Of a DNA stretch of 64,000 nt, positions 4,839-59,046 are shown in pieces. Below the pieces are notes generated by a model that was given only the letters and a program-made list of their open reading frames with translations, was not told the origin of the DNA and did no database searches. The stretch comes from an uncultured Eubacteriales bacterium (GTDB lineage: Bacteria; Bacillota; Clostridia; Christensenellales; Aristaeellaceae): NCBI GenBank assembly GCA_900315315.1, contig OMYT01000002.1, forward strand, positions 121,047-185,046. The letters run 5' to 3'. The number at the start of each line of letters is the position of its first letter. Position 1 is the stretch's first letter. Both the position numbers and the translations under genes were made by a program.

Positions 4839-6416
4839 TTGAATCTGATTCGAAAAATGAGCGCGGAATACGCGGACTATCTGTTTGACGAGTCCAGGAC
4901 GATGGGCTCGGCGGACTATATCGCGTTTCCGGCAAACGAGGAGGAATTGGCGGAGGTTGTCCGCTGGTGCGCGGAGAAGCAGGTGCCGCTGACGGCTCAG
5001 GGCGCACTGACCGGCCTGGCCGGCGGGGCGAGCCCGGAGCGCGGGCTGGTCCTGAATCTGCAGCGGATGAACCGGATCCTCGGCATGCGGAAGGATTCGG
5101 ACGGCACATATTATGTGCGCGTGCAGCCGGGGCTCCGCCTGGCGCAGCTGCGCCGCGCGCTGGCGGTGAAGGCGTTTGACGTGGCGGGGTGGGACGAGGA
5201 ATCCATCGGGACGCTGAAGGAGATCGCCCCCGGGCAGCTGTTTTTCCCGCCGGATCCGACAGAACCGACAGCGAGCATCGGCGGTATGGCTTCCTGTAAC
5301 GCGTGCGGGGCACGCAGCGTTCAGTACGGCTGCACCAGGGCACATATCCATGCACTTCGGGTCGTGCTGGCGGACGGGCAGATCGCGGACCTGGAAAGAG
5401 AAAAACAGAAAGCGGACGGCAGGAAGATCCGGATGCAGACGACGGACGGGAATGTGCTGGAGACAACGCTGCCGTCATTTGAAACGCCGGAGATCAAGGA
5501 CGCCGGATTCTTTATCCGGCGGAATATGGATTTGCTGGATCTGTTTATCGGAAGCCAGGGAACGATGGGAATCATTTCGGAACTGGAACTGAAGCTGATG
5601 CCTGTGCCGAAGCATCTATGGGGTGTGACGGCCTTTTTTCCGGACGACGAATGCGCACTGGCATATGTGCGTGCCGTGAAGGGAAGACCGGATCCGGGCG
5701 TACCGCGCTTTCCGCGGCCGGCCGCGTCCATTGAATTCTTTGACAAAAATGCGCTGGATATGGTGCAGCAGCAGAAAGCCGTGACACCTGCTTTCCGTCA
5801 GCTTCAGGAACTGCCGGAGAATTACTGCAGCGCGGTATATGTGGAACTGAACGACGACGATCCGGGAGAAATACCGGAGGTGCTGACGGCGCTGGCGGAG
5901 GTGCTGACGGCGGTCGGCGGGGATCCGGACAGAACCTGGGTGGCCCGGGATGCGCTGGAGCTGGAGCAGCTGCTGTTTTTCCGCCACAGCGTACCGGAGA
6001 CTATTGACCTGATTGTGGAGGAGAACCGGAAGAAGGAACCGTGTATCACGATCCTGTCCACGGACATGGCGGTGGACGACGACCATTTCGATGAACTGTT
6101 CCATATCTACAAAAAGGACCTGCAGGCTTCCGACCTGCCGTGGATTATCTTCGGGCATATCGGGGAGAACCATGTGCATCCGAATATCCTGGCCAGGGAC
6201 CGGCGGGAGTATGAGCAGGGGCATCAGATCTTTGAAAAATGGGCGAGGGAAGTTCACCGGATGGGCGGGAGCATTTCCGCAGAGCACGGGGCCGGCAAGA
6301 TCAAACGGCGGCTGGCGCTGATCATGTATGGAGAAGAGCGGCTGAAGGAACTGTACGCGCTGAAACGCGCGTTTGATCCACAGGGGATTCTGGGGCCGGG
6401 GAATATATTTGAGTGA
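4839..6416 (+). CDS. FAD-linked oxidase, GlcD/lactate dehydrogenase family
   Basis: A roughly 525-residue flavoprotein. The N-terminal PCMH-type FAD-binding domain shows ADYIAFPANEEELAEVVRWC, PLTAQGALTGLAGGASP and the FAD-contacting PPDPTEPTASIGGMASCNACG; the C-terminal cap shows GHIGENHVHPNI (metal or substrate histidines) and SAEHGAGKIKR near the end. This is the architecture of GlcD, D-lactate dehydrogenase and the LctD subunit of lactate dehydrogenase/Etf complexes. The next gene encodes a fused electron transfer flavoprotein, so electrons from a 2-hydroxy acid probably pass to Etf. No good ATG with ribosome site exists: TTG 4839 behind AGAGGA is preferred, TTG 4818 and ATG 4857 are alternatives. 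Confidence 0.9.
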   Translation: MNLIRKMSAEYADYLFDESRTMGSADYIAFPANEEELAEVVRWCAEKQVPLTAQGALTGLAGGASPERGLVLNLQRMNRILGMRKDSDGTYYVRVQPGLRLAQLRRALAVKAFDVAGWDEESIGTLKEIAPGQLFFPPDPTEPTASIGGMASCNACGARSVQYGCTRAHIHALRVVLADGQIADLEREKQKADGRKIRMQTTDGNVLETTLPSFETPEIKDAGFFIRRNMDLLDLFIGSQGTMGIISELELKLMPVPKHLWGVTAFFPDDECALAYVRAVKGRPDPGVPRFPRPAASIEFFDKNALDMVQQQKAVTPAFRQLQELPENYCSAVYVELNDDDPGEIPEVLTALAEVLTAVGGDPDRTWVARDALELEQLLFFRHSVPETIDLIVEENRKKEPCITILSTDMAVDDDHFDELFHIYKKDLQASDLPWIIFGHIGENHVHPNILARDRREYEQGHQIFEKWAREVHRMGGSISAEHGAGKIKRRLALIMYGEERLKELYALKRAFDPQGILGPGNIFE

Positions 6417-49211: not shown

Positions 49212-49892
49212 ATGTTTTTTATGAAACTACTGATTGTGGACGATGAGGCGCGGATCCGTGCTTTGATCGCAAAATACGCTGCCTTTGAGGGATATGAGAC
49301 CGATGAGGCGGAGAACGGCATGCAGGCGATTGAGAAATGCCGGGAAAACCATTACGACCTGATCATCATGGATGTGATGATGCCGGAGCTGGACGGGTTC
49401 TCCGCGGTGCGTGAAATCCGGAAGAACGATAACGTGCCGGTGATCATGCTGTCGGCCCGGGGGGAGGAATACGACCGGATTCACGGGTTTGAGCTCGGCA
49501 TTGATGACTATGTGGTGAAACCTTTCTCCCCGAAGGAACTGATGATGCGCGTGGGCGCGGTGCTCAAGCGCAGCGGGGAAGCCGCGAAGAAGGAAGACGA
49601 GACGATTACCGTCGGCGGCATCACAGCCGATTTTACCGCCCGGCGCGTCCTGATCGACGGGGAAGAGGTTGAACTGAGCCCGAAGGAATACGACCTGCTG
49701 TTCTACATGATCCGGAACCGGGGCATTGCCCTGACCCGGGAGGCCCTGATCAGCGACGTCTGGGGGTACGATTTCTTCGGCGACGACCGGACGCTGGATA
49801 CGCATATCAAACTGCTCCGGAAGCAGCTGGGGCCGTACGCGAACAAGATCACTACGCTCAGAGGGGTAGGCTATCGCTTTGAAAAAGAATGA
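49212..49892 (+). CDS. OmpR/PhoB-family response regulator
   Basis: A 226-residue regulator. The receiver domain has LLIVDDEARIRALIA, phospho-acceptor Asp in DLIIMDVMMPELDG (about residue 54) and Lys in DDYVVKPFSPKEL. The DNA-binding winged helix reads VELSPKEYDLLFYMIRNRGI and DRTLDTHIKLLRKQLGPYAN. It is paired with the histidine kinase gene, which overlaps by 14 bp. Starts at 49212 (AAGGA five bases before) or 49221 are both possible. Confidence 0.94.
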   Translation: MFFMKLLIVDDEARIRALIAKYAAFEGYETDEAENGMQAIEKCRENHYDLIIMDVMMPELDGFSAVREIRKNDNVPVIMLSARGEEYDRIHGFELGIDDYVVKPFSPKELMMRVGAVLKRSGEAAKKEDETITVGGITADFTARRVLIDGEEVELSPKEYDLLFYMIRNRGIALTREALISDVWGYDFFGDDRTLDTHIKLLRKQLGPYANKITTLRGVGYRFEKE

Positions 49893-51022: not shown

Positions 51023-51094
<72 letters not shown>

Positions 51095-51099
51095 AATGG

Positions 51100-51172
51100 A
51101 GCGGTAGACGGGACTCGGACCCGCGACATCCACCTTGGCAAGGTGGCACTCTACCAACTGAGCTACTACCGC
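51100..51172 (-). tRNA. tRNA-Gly (GCC)
   Basis: GCGGTAG acceptor stem, anticodon loop TTGCCAA between CCACC and GGTGG, T-arm with GGTCCGAGTCC. Confidence 0.96.
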
Positions 51173-51186
51173 ATAAGGGAAAACCG

Positions 51187-51267
51187 TGCGGACGAAGAGA
51201 CTCGAACTCTTACGCCTCTCGGCACCAGATCCTAAGTCTGGCGCGTCTGCCATTCCGCCACGCCCGC
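51187..51267 (-). tRNA. tRNA-Leu (TAG)
   Basis: GCGGGCG acceptor stem (pairs with CGTCCGC with one G-U), anticodon loop CTTAGGA, long variable arm as in class II tRNAs, T-arm GAGTTCGAGTCTC. Confidence 0.95.
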
Positions 51268-51297
51268 AGACCAGGCACGGCGAAAAGCAGAAGGAAG

Positions 51298-51370
51298 TGA
51301 CCCATTGGAGATTCGAACTCCAGACACCTTGATTAAAAGTCAAGTGCTCTGCCAACTGAGCTAATGGGTC
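51298..51370 (-). tRNA. tRNA-Lys (TTT)
   Basis: GACCCAT acceptor stem, anticodon loop CTTTTAA between CTTGA and TCAAG, T-arm GGAGTTCGAATCTCC. Confidence 0.96.
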
Positions 51371-51376
51371 ATAAAG

Positions 51377-51448
51377 CTGGGGTGGCAGGGCTCGAACCTA
51401 CGAATGCGGGAGTCAAAGTCCCGTGCCTTACCACTTGGCTACACCCCA
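51377..51448 (-). tRNA. tRNA-Gln (TTG)
   Basis: TGGGGTG acceptor stem, anticodon loop CTTTGAC between CGGGA and TCCCG, T-arm AGGTTCGAGCCCT. Confidence 0.96.
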
Positions 51449-51492
51449 ACGTAGGTAAATCTGCCAGCTTGACGCCGAAGCCGGGAAAATGG

Positions 51493-51567
51493 GGTGAGTA
51501 GTGGGACTCGAACCCACGGTCTTCAGAGCCACAATCTGACGCGTTAACCAACTACGCTATACCCACC
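51493..51567 (-). tRNA. tRNA-His (GTG)
   Basis: Acceptor stem with the extra G at -1 pairing C73, anticodon loop TTGTGGC, T-arm GGGTTCGAGTCCC. The sequence after C73 happens to read CCA. Confidence 0.95.
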
Positions 51568-51577
51568 ATGTGATTGG

Positions 51578-51651
51578 CGCGCCTGGAGGGACTCGAACCC
51601 CCGGCCCACGGCTTAGAAGGCCGTTGCTCTATCCAACTGAGCTACAGGCGC
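51578..51651 (-). tRNA. tRNA-Arg (TCT)
   Basis: GCGCCTG acceptor stem, anticodon loop CTTCTAA between ACGGC and GCCGT, T-arm GGGGTTCGAGTCCC. First gene of the array after the promoter. Confidence 0.96.
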
Positions 51652-51810: not shown

Positions 51811-52136
51811 CGTGCGAGGTGAACAGACGGTCGCAGGCCTTCGGGCGTGAGGAAAGTCCGGGCACCGCAGGGCAAGGGTGCCGGCTAACGGCCGGCGGAG
51901 GCGACTCCAGGGAAAGTGCAACAGAAATAAACCGCCGTCCCTCGGGGCGGTAAGGATGGAAAGGCGAGGTAAGAGCTCACCCGCCCGCCGGGAGACCGGA
52001 GGGCGCTGTAAACCCCACCCGGTGCAAGATGCAACGGAGGCAAGCCGGCGGCCCGCCGCGTTCTCCGCAATCGCTTGAGCCGCGCGGCAACGCGCGGCCT
52101 GGATAGATGACCGTCCAATACAGAACCCGGCTTATG
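51811..52136 (+). ncRNA. rnpB: RNase P RNA, bacterial class A
   Basis: The universal conserved blocks are present: GAGGAAAGTCCGGGC (51850-51864), ACAGAAATAAACCGCC, GGAAAGGCGAGGTAAGAGCTC, GGTGCAAGATGCAACGG-type P10/11 region and the 3' block GGATAGATGACCGTCC, then CAGAACCCGGCTTAT. It is the catalytic RNA that matures tRNA 5' ends. It sits next to a tRNA array transcribed from a divergent promoter. Ends are set from the promoter and the conserved 3' block and may shift by a few bases. Confidence 0.96.
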
Positions 52137-52155
52137 GTCACGCTCGCACTTTCAA

Positions 52156-52689: not shown

Positions 52690-52819
52690 TCATTCTGTCC
52701 GGGCTTTTCCGATATCTTCATTATTATAAAGGCAGGCCGGATTGTCAATATTCAGCCGAAACAGAGAGAACAGAAAAAGAACAAAATGACATCTGAAACA
52801 TGAAAGTTTTTTCAATATG

Positions 52820-52851
52820 TAACCGGATATATAACCGAATTATGGTAGAAT
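52820..52851 (+). promoter_or_regulatory. Promoter with tandem TAACCG direct repeats (surface gene 1)
   Basis: TAACCG at 52820-52825 and 52832-52837, 12 bp apart, end 8 bp before a TAGAAT -10 box (52846-52851). The -35 position has CCGGAT, far from consensus. The layout matches promoters that need a SARP-type activator, and the -35 replacing repeats are shared with the promoter at 55368. Confidence 0.7.
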
Positions 52852-52914
52852 AGTAGTGCAATCAGGGGAACGGACCCCTGACACAGGAAGACCGGAAGGA
52901 GAGGACGGCCCTTT

Positions 52915-53760
52915 ATGAATAAGAGCAAGAAGCTGACGAGACTGGCAGCGTTCCTTGTTATCCTGGCCATGCTGCTCGCTTCGTTCTCTGCAGTATATGG
53001 CGACGAATTCGAGGTAACTGAGGAGCCGGCGGTCGAGGTTTACGAAGTAACCGAACCGGAGCCCGCGCCCGAACCGGAACCTGTGCCGGAACCTGAACCG
53101 GAACCGGAACCTGAACCCGCGCCGGAACCTGAACCGGAACCGGAACCTGAACCCGCGCCGGAACCTGAACCCGAACCGGAACCGGAACCGGAACCGGAAC
53201 CCGAACCGGAACCGGAACCGGAACCCGAACCGGAACCGGAACCGGAACCGGAACCCGAACCAGAACCGGAACCGGAACCGGAACCCGAACCGGAACCCAT
53301 CGTGATCGAAGTCGAACATGATGACGATGTCCAGATCGAGGAACAGGGCTGGGCCGATGACGATGACGAAGATTTCGGAGACGAGTCGGATGATTTCGGC
53401 GGCGACGATGATCTGGTTGAATTTGACGAATGGGACGCCGGCGCAGTGTCGGAGGATCTGCTTTCGCAGTTCAACAACCCGGATAATTTCGAAAAGGTCG
53501 AGTTTACCGGCAGCGCGGATATCCGCCTGAAGAATGCCGATGAACTGTTTGATGACGGATGGGACGGAACTGTGACCTTGGCAGCGCAGGTGCGCGAGGC
53601 CAGCCTGAGCTACCGTCTGGTATGGGAAGCCAATGACCATGACGACCGCGGGTGGTTCACCGTGGGAAGCGGTGATGAATACAGTTACACCATGACCCGC
53701 GAGATTGCGGAGCGTGAAGCCAATCGCGAGTACCGCGTCGTGATGTTCACAGTAGACTGA
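52915..53760 (+). CDS. Secreted Glu-Pro-repeat surface protein 1
   Basis: A 281-residue exported protein. Signal peptide residues 1-29 ([20 protein letters not shown] and on to YG). Residues about 47-128 are a Glu-Pro dipeptide tract of about 41 units with occasional Ala or Val. Then comes a strongly acidic linker ([19 protein letters not shown]) and a C-terminal beta domain of about 100 residues with [33 protein letters not shown] and YRVVMFTVD, an Ig-like appearance. There is no LPXTG motif or anchor. It is a paralogue of the gene at 55454. The Glu-Pro tract could span the cell wall. Function unknown. ATG follows GGAAGGAGAGGAC. Confidence 0.85.
53053..53298 (+). repeat. Glu-Pro coding microsatellite 1
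   Basis: An in-frame 6-bp repeat, GAACCG/GAACCC/GAACCT, about 41 units. Variation is confined to third codon positions and a few Ala/Val codons, as in a slippage-prone repeat kept open by selection. Confidence 0.9.
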
Positions 53761-53795
53761 CATTTCCTTCTTCTTCATATTCTATCCTCCTTTTT

Positions 53796-53837
53796 CCGAC
53801 ATATTCCCACCAGGGAATATGTCGGTCCTCTTTTTAT
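53796..53837 (+). terminator. Terminator after surface gene 1
   Basis: CCGACATATTCCC (53796-53808) pairs perfectly with GGGAATATGTCGG (53813-53825), followed by TCCTCTTTTT. Confidence 0.93.
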
Positions 53838-53866
53838 AGAAAAGCTATTTTTTTCAAAATAAATAC

Positions 53867-53895
53867 TTGTCAAACAGGCAAAAGCCTGTTAAACT
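53867..53895 (+). promoter_or_regulatory. Promoter of the SARP regulator gene, with spacer palindrome
   Basis: TTGTCA (53867-53872), 17-bp spacer, TAAACT (53890-53895). The spacer contains AACAGGC-AAAA-GCCTGTT (53873-53890), a perfect dyad that may be an operator. Confidence 0.65.
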
Positions 53896-53896
53896 G

Positions 53897-53921
53897 TAAC
53901 CGAATTTGGGAAAAGTAACCA
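53897..53921 (+). promoter_or_regulatory. TAACCG/TAACCA sites downstream of the regulator promoter
   Basis: TAACCG (53897-53902) and TAACCA (53916-53921) start two bases after the -10 box. Their match to the promoter repeats of the neighbouring surface genes suggests autoregulation; the spacing (19 bp) differs. Confidence 0.4.
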
Positions 53922-53998
53922 AATTATTACGCAATGACACAGATATGAAACAAAAATGAACCAATTAACAGGGGCAAAGTAACACAGGAGGAGAAATC

Positions 53999-55231
53999 AT
54001 GGCGGACAGCATCCGGATCCAGATGATGGATCACTTCCTCATTTATATTGATGAAAAGAAAACGGATCATCTGGCGGCAAAGTCCAAGAAGGGCGCTGCA
54101 CTGGTGCAGTATCTGATCCTGAACGAAGGAGAACCCGTTCCGAACCAGAAACTGCTGGCAGCCCTGTGGGATGAGGAAAAAAGTACTAATCCCGAGAACG
54201 CGCTGAAAACGCTGGTCAGCCGTCTGCGCGTCCTGCTGAACCAGATCGACCCGAGCCTGGGCGCCTGCGTGGTGTCCGACCGCGGGGCGTATCACTGGGA
54301 AAAGACGGAAGGGATGACCATCGACCTGTATGAGATCGATGCGATCTTCGAGCGCCTTGCGGAAAACAACGTACCGGTTCCCGAGCAGCGGAGACTGTAT
54401 AACCAGCTGCTGGAAAAATACCAGGGCGACCTGCTTCAGCACAGTGAACAGAACGAATGGGCGCTGGCCAAGGCTACCACGCTGCACAACAAGTATATGG
54501 CAGCGATTTATGCCTATATCGAACTGCTGAAGTCCAAGGCGCAGCACGCCGACATCGTGAGCGTTTGCCGCCGGGCACTGGATATCGATTCCTTTGACGA
54601 CCGGCTGCATATGGAGCTGATGTCCGCCCTGATCAAAATCAACCGGACCGGCGAAGCCATGGTGCAGTACAAGCACGTGGTCCAGCTGAATTACCGCTAC
54701 CTCGGCGTCCAACCCAGCGAGGATCTGCAGGAATTCTACAAGCAGATCGTTTCCGCGGGCAAAACATTGGACTTCAACCTGGAATCCATCCGCAACGAAC
54801 TGCGGGAGAGCGGTGACCGCCGCGGCGCTTTCGTGTGCGAATATACCGTGTTCAAGGAAATCTTCAACCTGCAGATGCGCAACCTGGAGCGCCTGGGCGC
54901 AACGATGTTCCTGGCGATCATCATGGTCTCCCCCTATAACGACAAGGAGATCGATTCGATGCGGCAGGACAACATCATGAGCGGCCTGCTGGAAATCCTT
55001 AAAAAGAATCTGCGCAAGGGCGACACAATCACCCGCTTCGCGCCGACTATCTTCGCGCTGCTGCTGCCCACGGTGAACTACAACACGGGCGGCATGGTGC
55101 TGGAACGCATCAAGCGCGTTTTCTACCGGAGTTTCCCCAACAGCAATATCGTGTTCAACTACCGTGTCGGACCGCTCAGCTCCCAGGGCATGCCCCTGCA
55201 GGATCCCGCGCTGGAGCCCAGAACGGAGTAA
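53999..55231 (+). CDS. SARP-type transcriptional regulator with BTAD and C-terminal GGDEF-like domain
   Basis: A 410-residue cytosolic regulator. Residues 1-100 are an OmpR-type winged helix (KGAALVQYLILNEGEPVPNQ, LLAALWDEEKSTNPENALKT, LVSRLRVLL). Residues 105-255 are a BTAD helical-repeat domain (YEIDAIFERLAENN, LLEKYQGDLLQHSEQNEWAL, DIVSVCRRALDIDSFDDRLH, VQLNYRYLGVQPSEDLQEFY), the SARP signature. Residues 275-400 resemble a degenerate GGDEF domain (LLEILKKNLRKGDTITRFAP, FALLLPTVN) without GGDEF itself. SARPs activate promoters by binding direct repeats near -35; such repeats precede both flanking surface genes, the likely targets. ATG follows CAGGAGGAG. Confidence 0.88.
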   Translation: MADSIRIQMMDHFLIYIDEKKTDHLAAKSKKGAALVQYLILNEGEPVPNQKLLAALWDEEKSTNPENALKTLVSRLRVLLNQIDPSLGACVVSDRGAYHWEKTEGMTIDLYEIDAIFERLAENNVPVPEQRRLYNQLLEKYQGDLLQHSEQNEWALAKATTLHNKYMAAIYAYIELLKSKAQHADIVSVCRRALDIDSFDDRLHMELMSALIKINRTGEAMVQYKHVVQLNYRYLGVQPSEDLQEFYKQIVSAGKTLDFNLESIRNELRESGDRRGAFVCEYTVFKEIFNLQMRNLERLGATMFLAIIMVSPYNDKEIDSMRQDNIMSGLLEILKKNLRKGDTITRFAPTIFALLLPTVNYNTGGMVLERIKRVFYRSFPNSNIVFNYRVGPLSSQGMPLQDPALEPRTE

Positions 55232-55235
55232 GGGC

Positions 55236-55273
55236 GGGGGGACTTTCCGATCGCCCCCCCGAACCCCCTTCGG
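55236..55273 (+). repeat. Palindromic CTTTCCGATCG repeat, copy 19
   Basis: GGGGGGACTTTCCGATCG, seven C, GAA, CCCCCTTCGG. An A is inserted after the G arm. It starts four bases after the regulator stop codon. Confidence 0.88.
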
Positions 55274-55308
55274 CCGAGTATTTGTTATGGTAGTAATGGA
55301 TAAAAGGC

Positions 55309-55335
55309 AACGCCCTGCGAATGCGGGGCGTTTTG
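55309..55335 (+). terminator. Terminator after the SARP gene
   Basis: AACGCCC (55309-55315) and GGGCGTT (55326-55332) with inner TGC/GCG pairing, followed by TTTT. Confidence 0.75.
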
Positions 55336-55367
55336 TCAAATCAAAACATTCTTTATTTCGGCCTATG

Positions 55368-55400
55368 TAACCGTATATATGACCGGGAATGTGATATAAT
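55368..55400 (+). promoter_or_regulatory. Promoter with tandem TAACCG-type direct repeats (surface gene 2)
   Basis: TAACCG (55368-55373) and TGACCG (55380-55385), 12 bp apart, end 9 bp before TATAAT (55395-55400). The expected -35 position reads CGTATA. The block TATGTAACCG, one base, ATATAT, one base, ACCG is shared with the promoter at 52820. Confidence 0.72.
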
Positions 55401-55453
55401 AACACCGTAATAAGGGAAAAGCACCCGAGAGAAACGAAAGGAGGGGACGGGCT

Positions 55454-56260
<807 letters not shown>

Positions 56261-57118: not shown

Positions 57119-57240
57119 TTGCAAAAACTTCCCGAATAATGATTTCAGGTAACTCTGAGGCCCTCAAAATCGAGTAACCGGTATGCTTTCAAACAGCACA
57201 CAAAGAAGTTGAAAAAATATGTCAGAAATGGCCTGAGATA

Positions 57241-57269
57241 TTGAAAATCAAGCGTCCGAGTGGTATAAT
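57241..57269 (+). promoter_or_regulatory. Promoter of the Glu-rich surface gene/adhesin operon
   Basis: TTGAAA (57241-57246), 17-bp spacer, TATAAT (57264-57269). The leader of about 110 nt contains TAACAA, AAACCG, TAACCG and TAACGC at 57308-57344, and another TAACCG lies upstream at 57175, which resemble the regulator sites nearby but without regular spacing. Confidence 0.65.
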
Positions 57270-57381
57270 ATATCTTACGATTTGGCTTATGGATTTTTGA
57301 GACGATGTAACAATTTTTATGAAACCGTGTAACCGATATAACGCACTTTTTTCAGACCCCAGAAAATGAAAGGAAAAGACC

Positions 57382-59046
57382 ATGAAAAACCTGCTGAAGA
57401 AGACTTTTTCTCTCCTGATCGCACTGACAATCCTGCTGAGTGGAATCTCCGCTATTGCTGATGACGGAGACGAAGCAAACGAGGCGACTGTTTTGACTCT
57501 TGAAGTCGGAAAGGGAATCAGCGGCACACTGCAACCGGACTCTGCCACGGAGATCCGGGCTTATGCCGGCAGAAGCGGAGAAGTCAGATTCACACTGACG
57601 CTGACAGATGACTGCGGTCCCGCTATCACTGTCAATGGCAGCAGCGTTTCCGTTGCACGGCAGAATGACAGCCTTCCGGTCTACACTTTCACCATGCTCT
57701 TTGCCGGAGGCGAAAGCAAAACCATTTCGCTGACCGCAAATGCATTATCGGGCTATTCGATGATCAGCGAAATGATCCCTGAGGAAACAGAAACAAAACC
57801 GGAAGAGCCTGCTCCGATACCGGCCCCTGCGACAGCCCCTGCAGAAGAAGCCACAGAAGAAGCCACAGAAGAGACCATAGAAGAGACCATAGAAGAGACC
57901 GAAGAAAAAACGAACCCGGAAGGAGAAACCGGACCGGAAACGCAGGAGCCTGCGACAACGGAGCCCGAACCCGCAGAGGAACCGGCAGCAGAATCCGCAG
58001 ATGCACCGGAAGAGGAGACGATGAAAGAAACAACGGTTCCCGAAGAAAAAACCGGACCGGAACCGCAGGATCCTGCGGCAGCGAAAGAAGAACCCAAGGA
58101 AGAGACGGCAGAACCGGCCGAAGCGATTAACCCCGATCCGGAATCCGTGGAATCCGAACAGCATAATGAGCCGGAAAGCATTCCTGAATCAGAAGAAAGC
58201 GGGAACCAGCAGACAGAGGAACTGCCGGAAGGACAGGAAGCTGAGCAACAGACAGAATCAGAAGAGCAGGAGCCTAAGCAACAAACAACCGAAGAGCAGG
58301 AAGCTGAACAGCCGAAGACCGAAAACTCTGAAGCTGCGGCTGACAGCGTGGAAATCATCATCGCGAAGTCCCTGACACCGGATGAAAGCTGGAAAGGCAC
58401 GGTCCGGAAAACTAAACCGACCATTTTGAAACTTGATGTAGCTGACTCCAGAATGATCCACCTGTTCGTCGAGGGAAAGGATGTTCTTTATTCCGTCCAG
58501 AAGTCTGACCGGATAACGGAAGACGCCGGTTACGTGCTGACAGACACAGCAACCAATCACAGCATCACCTCCTGGGCAGCCGAACCCGGATCCTACCTGA
58601 TCAGCATCCGCGCAGGCGAGAGCAGCATGGGAGCCAGAGTCACCATCAGCTTCAAAAACGACGAAGAGTTTGCTGCCTGGGAAGAAGAACAGGCAGCATT
58701 GGAAGAAGAATCAGACACACAGGAAAGTGAAACTCCGGAGGAAACCGAGAAGACTATCGAACCTATCTCTGAAGAAAAAAAAGAGCCGGAAACGGAGAGA
58801 TCTATAGATTATGAACTGACTTGGGATACAGATGATCCTGTTATCGGCGACACGGCGCATTTTAACGCTAAACTGATCGGCTATGAAGGATTGACTTATA
58901 CACTCCAATGGCAAATGAGCCCGGACAAAGTTCATTGGACAGACATTGAAGGCGAGACAAATAACACAATGGATATTGTCATCACGCCGGAAAGAAATGA
59001 GACGTACTGGCGTCTGACGGTCTACCTTGAACAACCGCAGGAATAA
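57382..59046 (+). CDS. Secreted Glu-rich surface protein with beta-sandwich domains
   Basis: A 554-residue exported protein. Signal peptide 1-26 (MKNLLKKTFSLLIALTILLS and on). Residues about 30-130 form a beta domain (GRSGEVRFTLTLTDDCGPAI). Residues about 135-325 are a low-complexity Glu/Pro/Thr/Ala/Gln region with imperfect repeats such as EEATEEATEETIEETIEETE. Residues 330-430 are a second beta domain (ESWKGTVRKTKPTILKLDV), then another Glu-rich linker and a C-terminal Ig-like domain (YTLQWQMSPDKVHWTDIEGE). No anchor motif. The last domain resembles those of the two Glu-Pro proteins. It is followed 70 bp later by the giant adhesin with no terminator, so they are likely one operon. Confidence 0.82.
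   Translation: MKNLLKKTFSLLIALTILLSGISAIADDGDEANEATVLTLEVGKGISGTLQPDSATEIRAYAGRSGEVRFTLTLTDDCGPAITVNGSSVSVARQNDSLPVYTFTMLFAGGESKTISLTANALSGYSMISEMIPEETETKPEEPAPIPAPATAPAEEATEEATEETIEETIEETEEKTNPEGETGPETQEPATTEPEPAEEPAAESADAPEEETMKETTVPEEKTGPEPQDPAAAKEEPKEETAEPAEAINPDPESVESEQHNEPESIPESEESGNQQTEELPEGQEAEQQTESEEQEPKQQTTEEQEAEQPKTENSEAAADSVEIIIAKSLTPDESWKGTVRKTKPTILKLDVADSRMIHLFVEGKDVLYSVQKSDRITEDAGYVLTDTATNHSITSWAAEPGSYLISIRAGESSMGARVTISFKNDEEFAAWEEEQAALEEESDTQESETPEETEKTIEPISEEKKEPETERSIDYELTWDTDDPVIGDTAHFNAKLIGYEGLTYTLQWQMSPDKVHWTDIEGETNNTMDIVITPERNETYWRLTVYLEQPQE

Follow-up and report, generated by a model that had tools for sequence, protein, structure and literature searches.

Putative tandem operators suggest that a SARP-type regulator with a degenerate GGDEF domain controls predicted secreted proteins in gut Clostridia

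SARPs are known as activators of antibiotic genes in actinomycetes. Here, we analysed a stretch of 64,000 nucleotides (the window; positions 121,047 to 185,046 of contig OMYT01000002.1, assembly GCA_900315315.1) from an uncultured Eubacteriales bacterium, in which the gene for a SARP-type regulator lies between two genes, GP1 and GP2, for predicted secreted proteins. The closest described system is AfsR of Streptomyces coelicolor. Its afs box spans -40 to -19 and consists of two 11-bp direct repeats overlapping the -35 region, with T88 and R92 among the base-contacting residues (PMC10936776). Our regulator resembles AfsR in combining a winged helix with a BTAD domain, in carrying T71 and R75 in place of T88 and R92, and in the location of the putative box at about -40 to -21. 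It differs from AfsR in the repeat period, which is mostly 12 rather than 11, and in the unit, TGTAACCG; in carrying a degenerate GGDEF domain where AfsR has NOD and TPR domains; and in its setting, with genes for secreted proteins as putative targets and a Clostridia host rather than an actinomycete.

Two further systems bear on the C-terminal part of the regulator. EmbR of Mycobacterium tuberculosis joins a SARP domain to an FHA domain (PMC10936776) and, like our regulator, carries an additional sensory domain C-terminal to its SARP-type DNA-binding part. The additional domain is FHA there and a degenerate GGDEF domain here, and EmbR is a weaker match to the regulator (E = 0.011). PelD, a membrane protein for polysaccharide export, is described as a degenerate-GGDEF receptor of cyclic di-GMP (c-di-GMP; PMC7288161). 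Our regulator has likewise lost the catalytic motif and kept the inhibitory-site residues. Unlike PelD, it carries the GGDEF domain attached to a DNA-binding part, and binding of c-di-GMP by this domain is a prediction. Among the open-access literature matches listed, judged by their titles and the beginnings of their abstracts, we found no description of a SARP or BTAD protein fused to GGDEF.

An earlier sequence-only reading of this DNA had proposed that the gene between the GP1 and GP2 promoters encodes a winged helix plus BTAD protein, which was borne out by Pfam (BTAD, E 3.5e-17, 63.6 bits; Trans_reg_C, E 2.3e-8, 34.4 bits; both over cut-off) and by AfsR as best match. The regulator is the only BTAD match in its own genome (89% complete), and the SARP domain of AfsR ranks first for it in the PDB by sequence as well as by fold. 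The model of the whole regulator has a predicted local distance difference test (pLDDT) score of 80.7 and a predicted template modelling (pTM) score of 0.56. T71 and R75, which align with T88 and R92 of AfsR, are kept in all 80 sequences compared (those of the 79 loci described below and our own), and W57 (W74 of AfsR) in 77 of them. Not all AfsR contacts match, as R87, K95 and Q48 of AfsR are K, V and K in the regulator. Three family features of SARPs, a winged helix followed by BTAD, the recognition-helix residues and direct repeats near -35, were found. The customary context, antibiotic clusters of actinomycetes, was not: the regulator occurs mostly in metagenome-assembled genomes (MAGs) of Clostridia or Clostridiales and has genes for secreted proteins as neighbours.

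The promoters of GP1 and GP2 are nearly identical in layout. Each carries two 8-bp units whose starts are 12 bp apart, and the second unit ends 8 bp (GP1) or 9 bp (GP2) before the -10 box. The hexamers 17 bp 5' of the -10 boxes, CCGGAT in GP1 and CGTATA in GP2, are not -35-like. Tandem direct repeats at both promoters in just this arrangement, with no -35 box, had been claimed before, and the positions confirm it. If transcription is assumed to start 7 bases after the -10 box, the GP1 box covers -40 to -21. The 22-mer TATGTAACCGNATATATNACCG occurs exactly twice in the 4,258,947 bases of the genome, at the GP1 and GP2 promoters, and its reversed control does not occur in the same genome. A looser version of the pair, TRACCG-N6-TRACCG, lacked specificity: it has nine exact matches genome-wide, seven of them away from the two promoters, and was dropped as too common (169 places with at most one mismatch, compared to 58 for the reversed control). 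As the plain pair is common, specificity is carried by the longer TGTAAC core together with the -10 box.

Is this arrangement kept in related genomes? A search of 100 genomes, our own included, gave matches to the regulator in 40, from which 33 neighbourhoods (own included) were taken. The supposed three-gene unit held in part: GP1, regulator and GP2 lie side by side in the same order in genomes G038, G040 and G031, while in G017 a GP2-like gene follows about 5 kb further on. The repeats are present at both promoters in these four genomes (with two mismatches at GP1 of G040), and versions with 11-bp spacing occur behind the regulator in G006, G013 and G010. A strict pattern (TGTAACY-N6/7-TDACC-N8/11-TANNNT) applied to all 45 genomes of the genus returned 27 rows, which are 26 distinct places in 16 genomes, compared to 9 for the reversed pattern. 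Judged by eye, 22 of the 26 places lie 5' of a gene for a signal-peptide protein; the other four are inside another reading frame (L105), before a signal-peptidase-like gene (L124), at a contig end (L099) and near no recognised gene (L114). Of the 26 genus genomes in which the regulator was found, 14 contain strict sites, compared to 2 of the other 19 (Fisher p 0.004, or 0.009 if G008, whose site is inside a frame, is dropped). A looser scan allowing three mismatches gave 32 rows against 3 control matches; as some of these lie inside coding frames (L212, L214), it was used for named cases only. Site-like sequences precede genes that we take to be signal-peptidase-like in G038 (L124, near 1501) and G039 (L210, near 1501).

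Beyond the genus, we examined 79 loci (632 kb in all), chosen as the best among 118 candidates, whose regulators share 38-97% identity with ours; they come mostly from Clostridia or Clostridiales MAGs, many of ruminant origin. Using 22 sites of the genus, we built a weight matrix, which scored 33 places in the 632 kb at 22 bits or higher, whereas three Markov shuffles yielded none; 15 of the 33 places lie in 11 loci of genomes that had supplied training sites and 18 in the other 68 loci. This conservation excludes chance as an explanation for the repeat pair. With the matrix retrained on 34 sites from the 79 loci, same-strand sites were detected no more than about 350 bp behind the regulator gene in 28 loci, among them 21 of the 68 non-training loci, whereas shuffled DNA yields on average 0.4 sites in all 632 kb at this threshold. 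Period and gap to the -10 box are 12 and 8 in 22 of these sites, 12 and 9 in three, and 11 and 8 in three. A matrix-free count of TGTAAC...TRAC behind the regulator gave 20 cases with a spacing of 12 and three with 11, while every other spacing from 7 to 30 occurred at most once. Within the 22 main-class sites, the units and the -10 box hardly vary, in part as a consequence of selection by the matrix, and the 4-bp and 8-bp spacers show no conservation except for a G that makes an extended -10. Site and regulator are conserved together down to 41% protein identity. At one locus (L194, about 5221-5266), TATAAT is preceded by three consecutive TGTAACC units of 12 bp.

The sites also go along with a particular type of gene. 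In the 77 of the 79 loci with at least 300 bases to judge, scored by plus-strand starts with a Shine-Dalgarno sequence, a recognised secreted gene follows the regulator at 27 of the 28 site-bearing loci, compared to 16 of the 49 others (Fisher, 1.3e-8; because the loci and target genes are related and the matrix was trained on such sites, the p values overstate independence, which limits their weight in favour of our interpretation). By eye, the sole miss among the 28 (L140) is secreted as well. A version of the test that scored antisense open reading frames opposite the repeats had shown no association (Fisher p 0.22) and was replaced by the one with plus-strand starts.

GP1 and GP2 are themselves predicted to be secreted, with signal peptides recognised by eye. 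The Glu-Pro genes had been named as the targets, and both do have the operator, but the Glu-Pro repeat is not what the targets share: the genes at L138, L140, L141 and L142 encode a signal peptide and one domain only. The common feature is the signal peptide, in many cases together with a C-terminal immunoglobulin-like (Ig-like) domain. Not all targets visibly end in this domain: the sequences retrieved for L101 and L110 stop before the end of the gene, and at L108 the contig does. Thirteen such domains, including those of GP1, GP2 and the gene at 57382-59046, align with one invariant Trp and one invariant Arg, and the model of the domain consists mainly of beta strands. Pfam gave no match over cut-off for the seven proteins tested, and the fold search returned nothing at E 0.001 or better; we call the domain Ig-like because the weak best rows were, besides a designed protein, mostly Ig or fibronectin type III domains. 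Contrary to what had been supposed, the circuit is also not only local. In the same genome, a further site (C80:12884) lies 5' of a secreted protein ending in an Ig-like domain, and another with three mismatches (C138:57995) lies 5' of a second one, so that the predicted regulon in this genome would include the former and probably the latter, too. Taken together, SARP promoter logic with a readable, conserved operator appears in a large group of uncultured gut Clostridia, tied to predicted secreted proteins, and the operator is specific enough for reading parts of the regulon from genomes.

The regulator gene has a canonical promoter of its own, on which one TGTAACCG unit is placed (Table 1), and GTAACCA follows 3' of it at 53915-53921. 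Both had been noted as sites just after the -10 box and as a hint of autoregulation; the sites are present, but the unit begins on the last base of the -10 box, pointing to autorepression. TGTAACY stands directly behind the regulator's -10 box, by eye, in 17 of 20 neighbourhoods whose regulator is more than 70% identical (not in G041, G010 and G024). With a fixed pattern and up to 250 bp upstream, a unit overlaps the -10 box in 13 of the 79 loci (shuffled mean 0.05), and the same overlap occurs 12 times in the other 1.23 Mb on both strands. All 13 cases are among the 18 loci with at least 70% identity and none among the 61 below, so the proposed autorepression site is lineage-restricted. Since a protein bound over the -10 and start region of a canonical promoter should block initiation, this position suggests that the regulator represses itself. 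Between the regulator's -35 and -10 boxes, we also observed a perfect inverted repeat, AACAGGC-aaaa-GCCTGTT (53873-53890), which is not found at the equivalent place in the other 19 orthologous regulator promoters examined.

From the computed sequence, spacing, position and conservation of the sites, the type of target, the domain architecture and the conserved residues, we infer binding, activation, autorepression and a ligand as follows. The product of the gene at 53999-55231, a SARP-type activator composed of winged helix, BTAD and degenerate GGDEF domain, would bind as two adjacent protomers to a pair of TGTAAC(C/T)G-type units that have a period of 11-12 bp and are centred near -30. Standing in for the -35 box, the bound SARP would recruit RNA polymerase to the -10 box of genes whose products are predicted to be secreted and in many cases end in an Ig-like domain; these genes comprise GP1, GP2 and others elsewhere in the genome. 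At its own promoter, the unit on the -10 and start region would let it repress itself, and the dead GGDEF domain, binding c-di-GMP at the inhibitory-site residues, would most likely gate its activity. Leaving the ligand step aside, we consider regulator, operator and targets as proposed here to be likely. Of the SARP control suggested by the sequence-only reading, the protein type, the replacement of the -35 box by repeats with nearly the AfsR geometry and the unit at the regulator's own -10 box stand, and the joint conservation of site and regulator down to 41% identity adds to this; the purely local scope and the Glu-Pro repeat as common trait of the targets do not, and the GGDEF domain had been missed.

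Several observations weigh against this proposal. No site was found behind the regulator in 51 of the 79 loci, and among the 49 site-less loci that could be judged, a recognised secreted gene is absent at this place in 33 and present nevertheless in 16. Repeats that are widespread without the regulator would also speak against SARP control, and weak signs of this were found in three incomplete genomes: site-like promoters precede secreted genes in G012 (93% complete) and G004 (88%), where BTAD gave no match, and in G011 (63%), where it matched only weakly, in a 1103-residue frame. The site is strict in G011 and has 2-3 mismatches in G012 and G004. Another regulator could be involved in these three, though the assemblies are incomplete. 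A candidate would be another winged-helix protein, such as the OmpR-type response regulator at 49212-49892, with the SARP gene as a mere neighbour of the repeats. OmpR-type regulators, too, bind direct repeats about 11 bp apart, and this one lies within about 10 kb of the SARP gene in 11 of the 33 neighbourhoods (own included) with at least 79% identity. However, among 31 loci with a site, inspected with flanks of 4 kb or less, this response regulator turned up just once. The site itself is next to the SARP gene at 28 of the 79 loci, and the box is placed like that of AfsR. We therefore regard control by such a protein as unlikely.

The SARP might also bind the sites and repress GP1 and GP2 instead of activating them, as the direction of control cannot be read from the sequence and a protein at the sites could hinder sigma contacts. 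The missing -35 boxes at both promoters and the AfsR-like position favour activation, and a -35 box is in fact present at the promoter of the regulator gene, the one for which we propose repression; repression of GP1 and GP2 thus appears slightly less probable still than control by another regulator. That the shared repeats are a by-product of the duplication of a secreted-gene unit, without any bound regulator, would fit the homology of the C-terminal domains of GP1 and GP2 (57% identity) and the many targets elsewhere that share the domain, but is very improbable given that units and -10 boxes are conserved (partly built in by the matrix) and spacers and most flanks are not, across regulators 41-72% identical, and that the unit is present in the regulator's own promoter as well.

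A further element of the proposal is the C-terminal domain of the regulator. Its Pfam match to GGDEF is below cut-off (E 0.01), but it aligns at E 0.0055 with the GGDEF structure 3ign, which contains c-di-GMP, and in Foldseek the regulator model matched 6khu (E 2.9e-4; template modelling score 0.70 of target) and also 3ign. The position of the catalytic motif reads APTIF in our regulator, and GG(D/E)EF is found in none of the 80 sequences, so these sequences lack the active site of a diguanylate cyclase. In contrast to this decay, the residues of the inhibitory site persist: R339 and D342 are found in all 80 sequences and R370 in 79, compared to 71% for the median column of the domain, and their offsets of 3 and 28 are those of R359, D362 and R390 in the c-di-GMP inhibitory site of PleD. 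Other residues, such as R298, C280 and F285, are kept equally well, so that the site residues stand among a small conserved set. As 45 GGDEF matches occur in our genome and some in 44 of the 45 genus genomes, c-di-GMP signalling is likely present in these bacteria. The argument for c-di-GMP sensing is that the inhibitory-site residues persist after the active site has decayed. It is weakened by ordinary GGDEF proteins, of which 6 of 7 (seen in eight loci of the genus) carry RxxD too; ancestry therefore explains part of this conservation. Rfam detected no c-di-GMP riboswitch in the window at the gathering threshold. On balance, we give about even chances to a gating of the regulator by c-di-GMP at the dead GGDEF domain. 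The same balanced judgement applies to the wider proposal of a new class of c-di-GMP-responsive factor in gut Clostridia, in which SARP and dead GGDEF are combined to switch a secreted, largely Ig-like regulon directly, with autorepression. If the domain does bind c-di-GMP, second-messenger signalling would be joined directly to a SARP activator.

Table 1. Features of the regulator locus, with positions in the window
Feature	Position	Strand	Remarks
Putative tandem operator of GP1	52818..52837	+	TGTAACCG at 52818-52825, TATAACCG at 52830-52837; kept in orthologous GP1 promoters
-10 box of GP1, TAGAAT	52846..52851	+	TG one base upstream (extended -10)
GP1	52915..53760	+	signal peptide by eye, Glu-Pro repeat, acidic stretch, C-terminal Ig-like domain
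Regulator's own promoter, TTGTCA-17-TAAACT	53867..53895	+	canonical; -10 at 53890-53895
TGTAACCG unit, proposed autorepression site	53895..53902	+	begins at last base of -10
SARP-type regulator, 410 aa	53999..55231	+	winged helix about 1-100, BTAD 129-250, degenerate GGDEF about 276-396
Putative tandem operator of GP2	55366..55385	+	TGTAACCG at 55366-55373, TATGACCG at 55378-55385
-10 box of GP2, TATAAT	55395..55400	+	TG one base upstream
GP2	55454..56260	+	signal peptide by eye, Glu-Pro repeat, C-terminal Ig-like domain

Some further features of the window were observed around these genes. Long antisense open reading frames lie opposite the Glu-Pro repeats (52840-53778, 53040-53477 and 55363-55812). 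Upstream of the locus, there are seven tRNA genes on the minus strand and the RNase P RNA (51023-51651, 51815-52150). The leader of the gene at 57382 (57220-57345) contains a TTGAAA-17-TATAAT promoter followed by TGTAAC sequences, including TGTAACC at 57328, which possibly represent another form of control.

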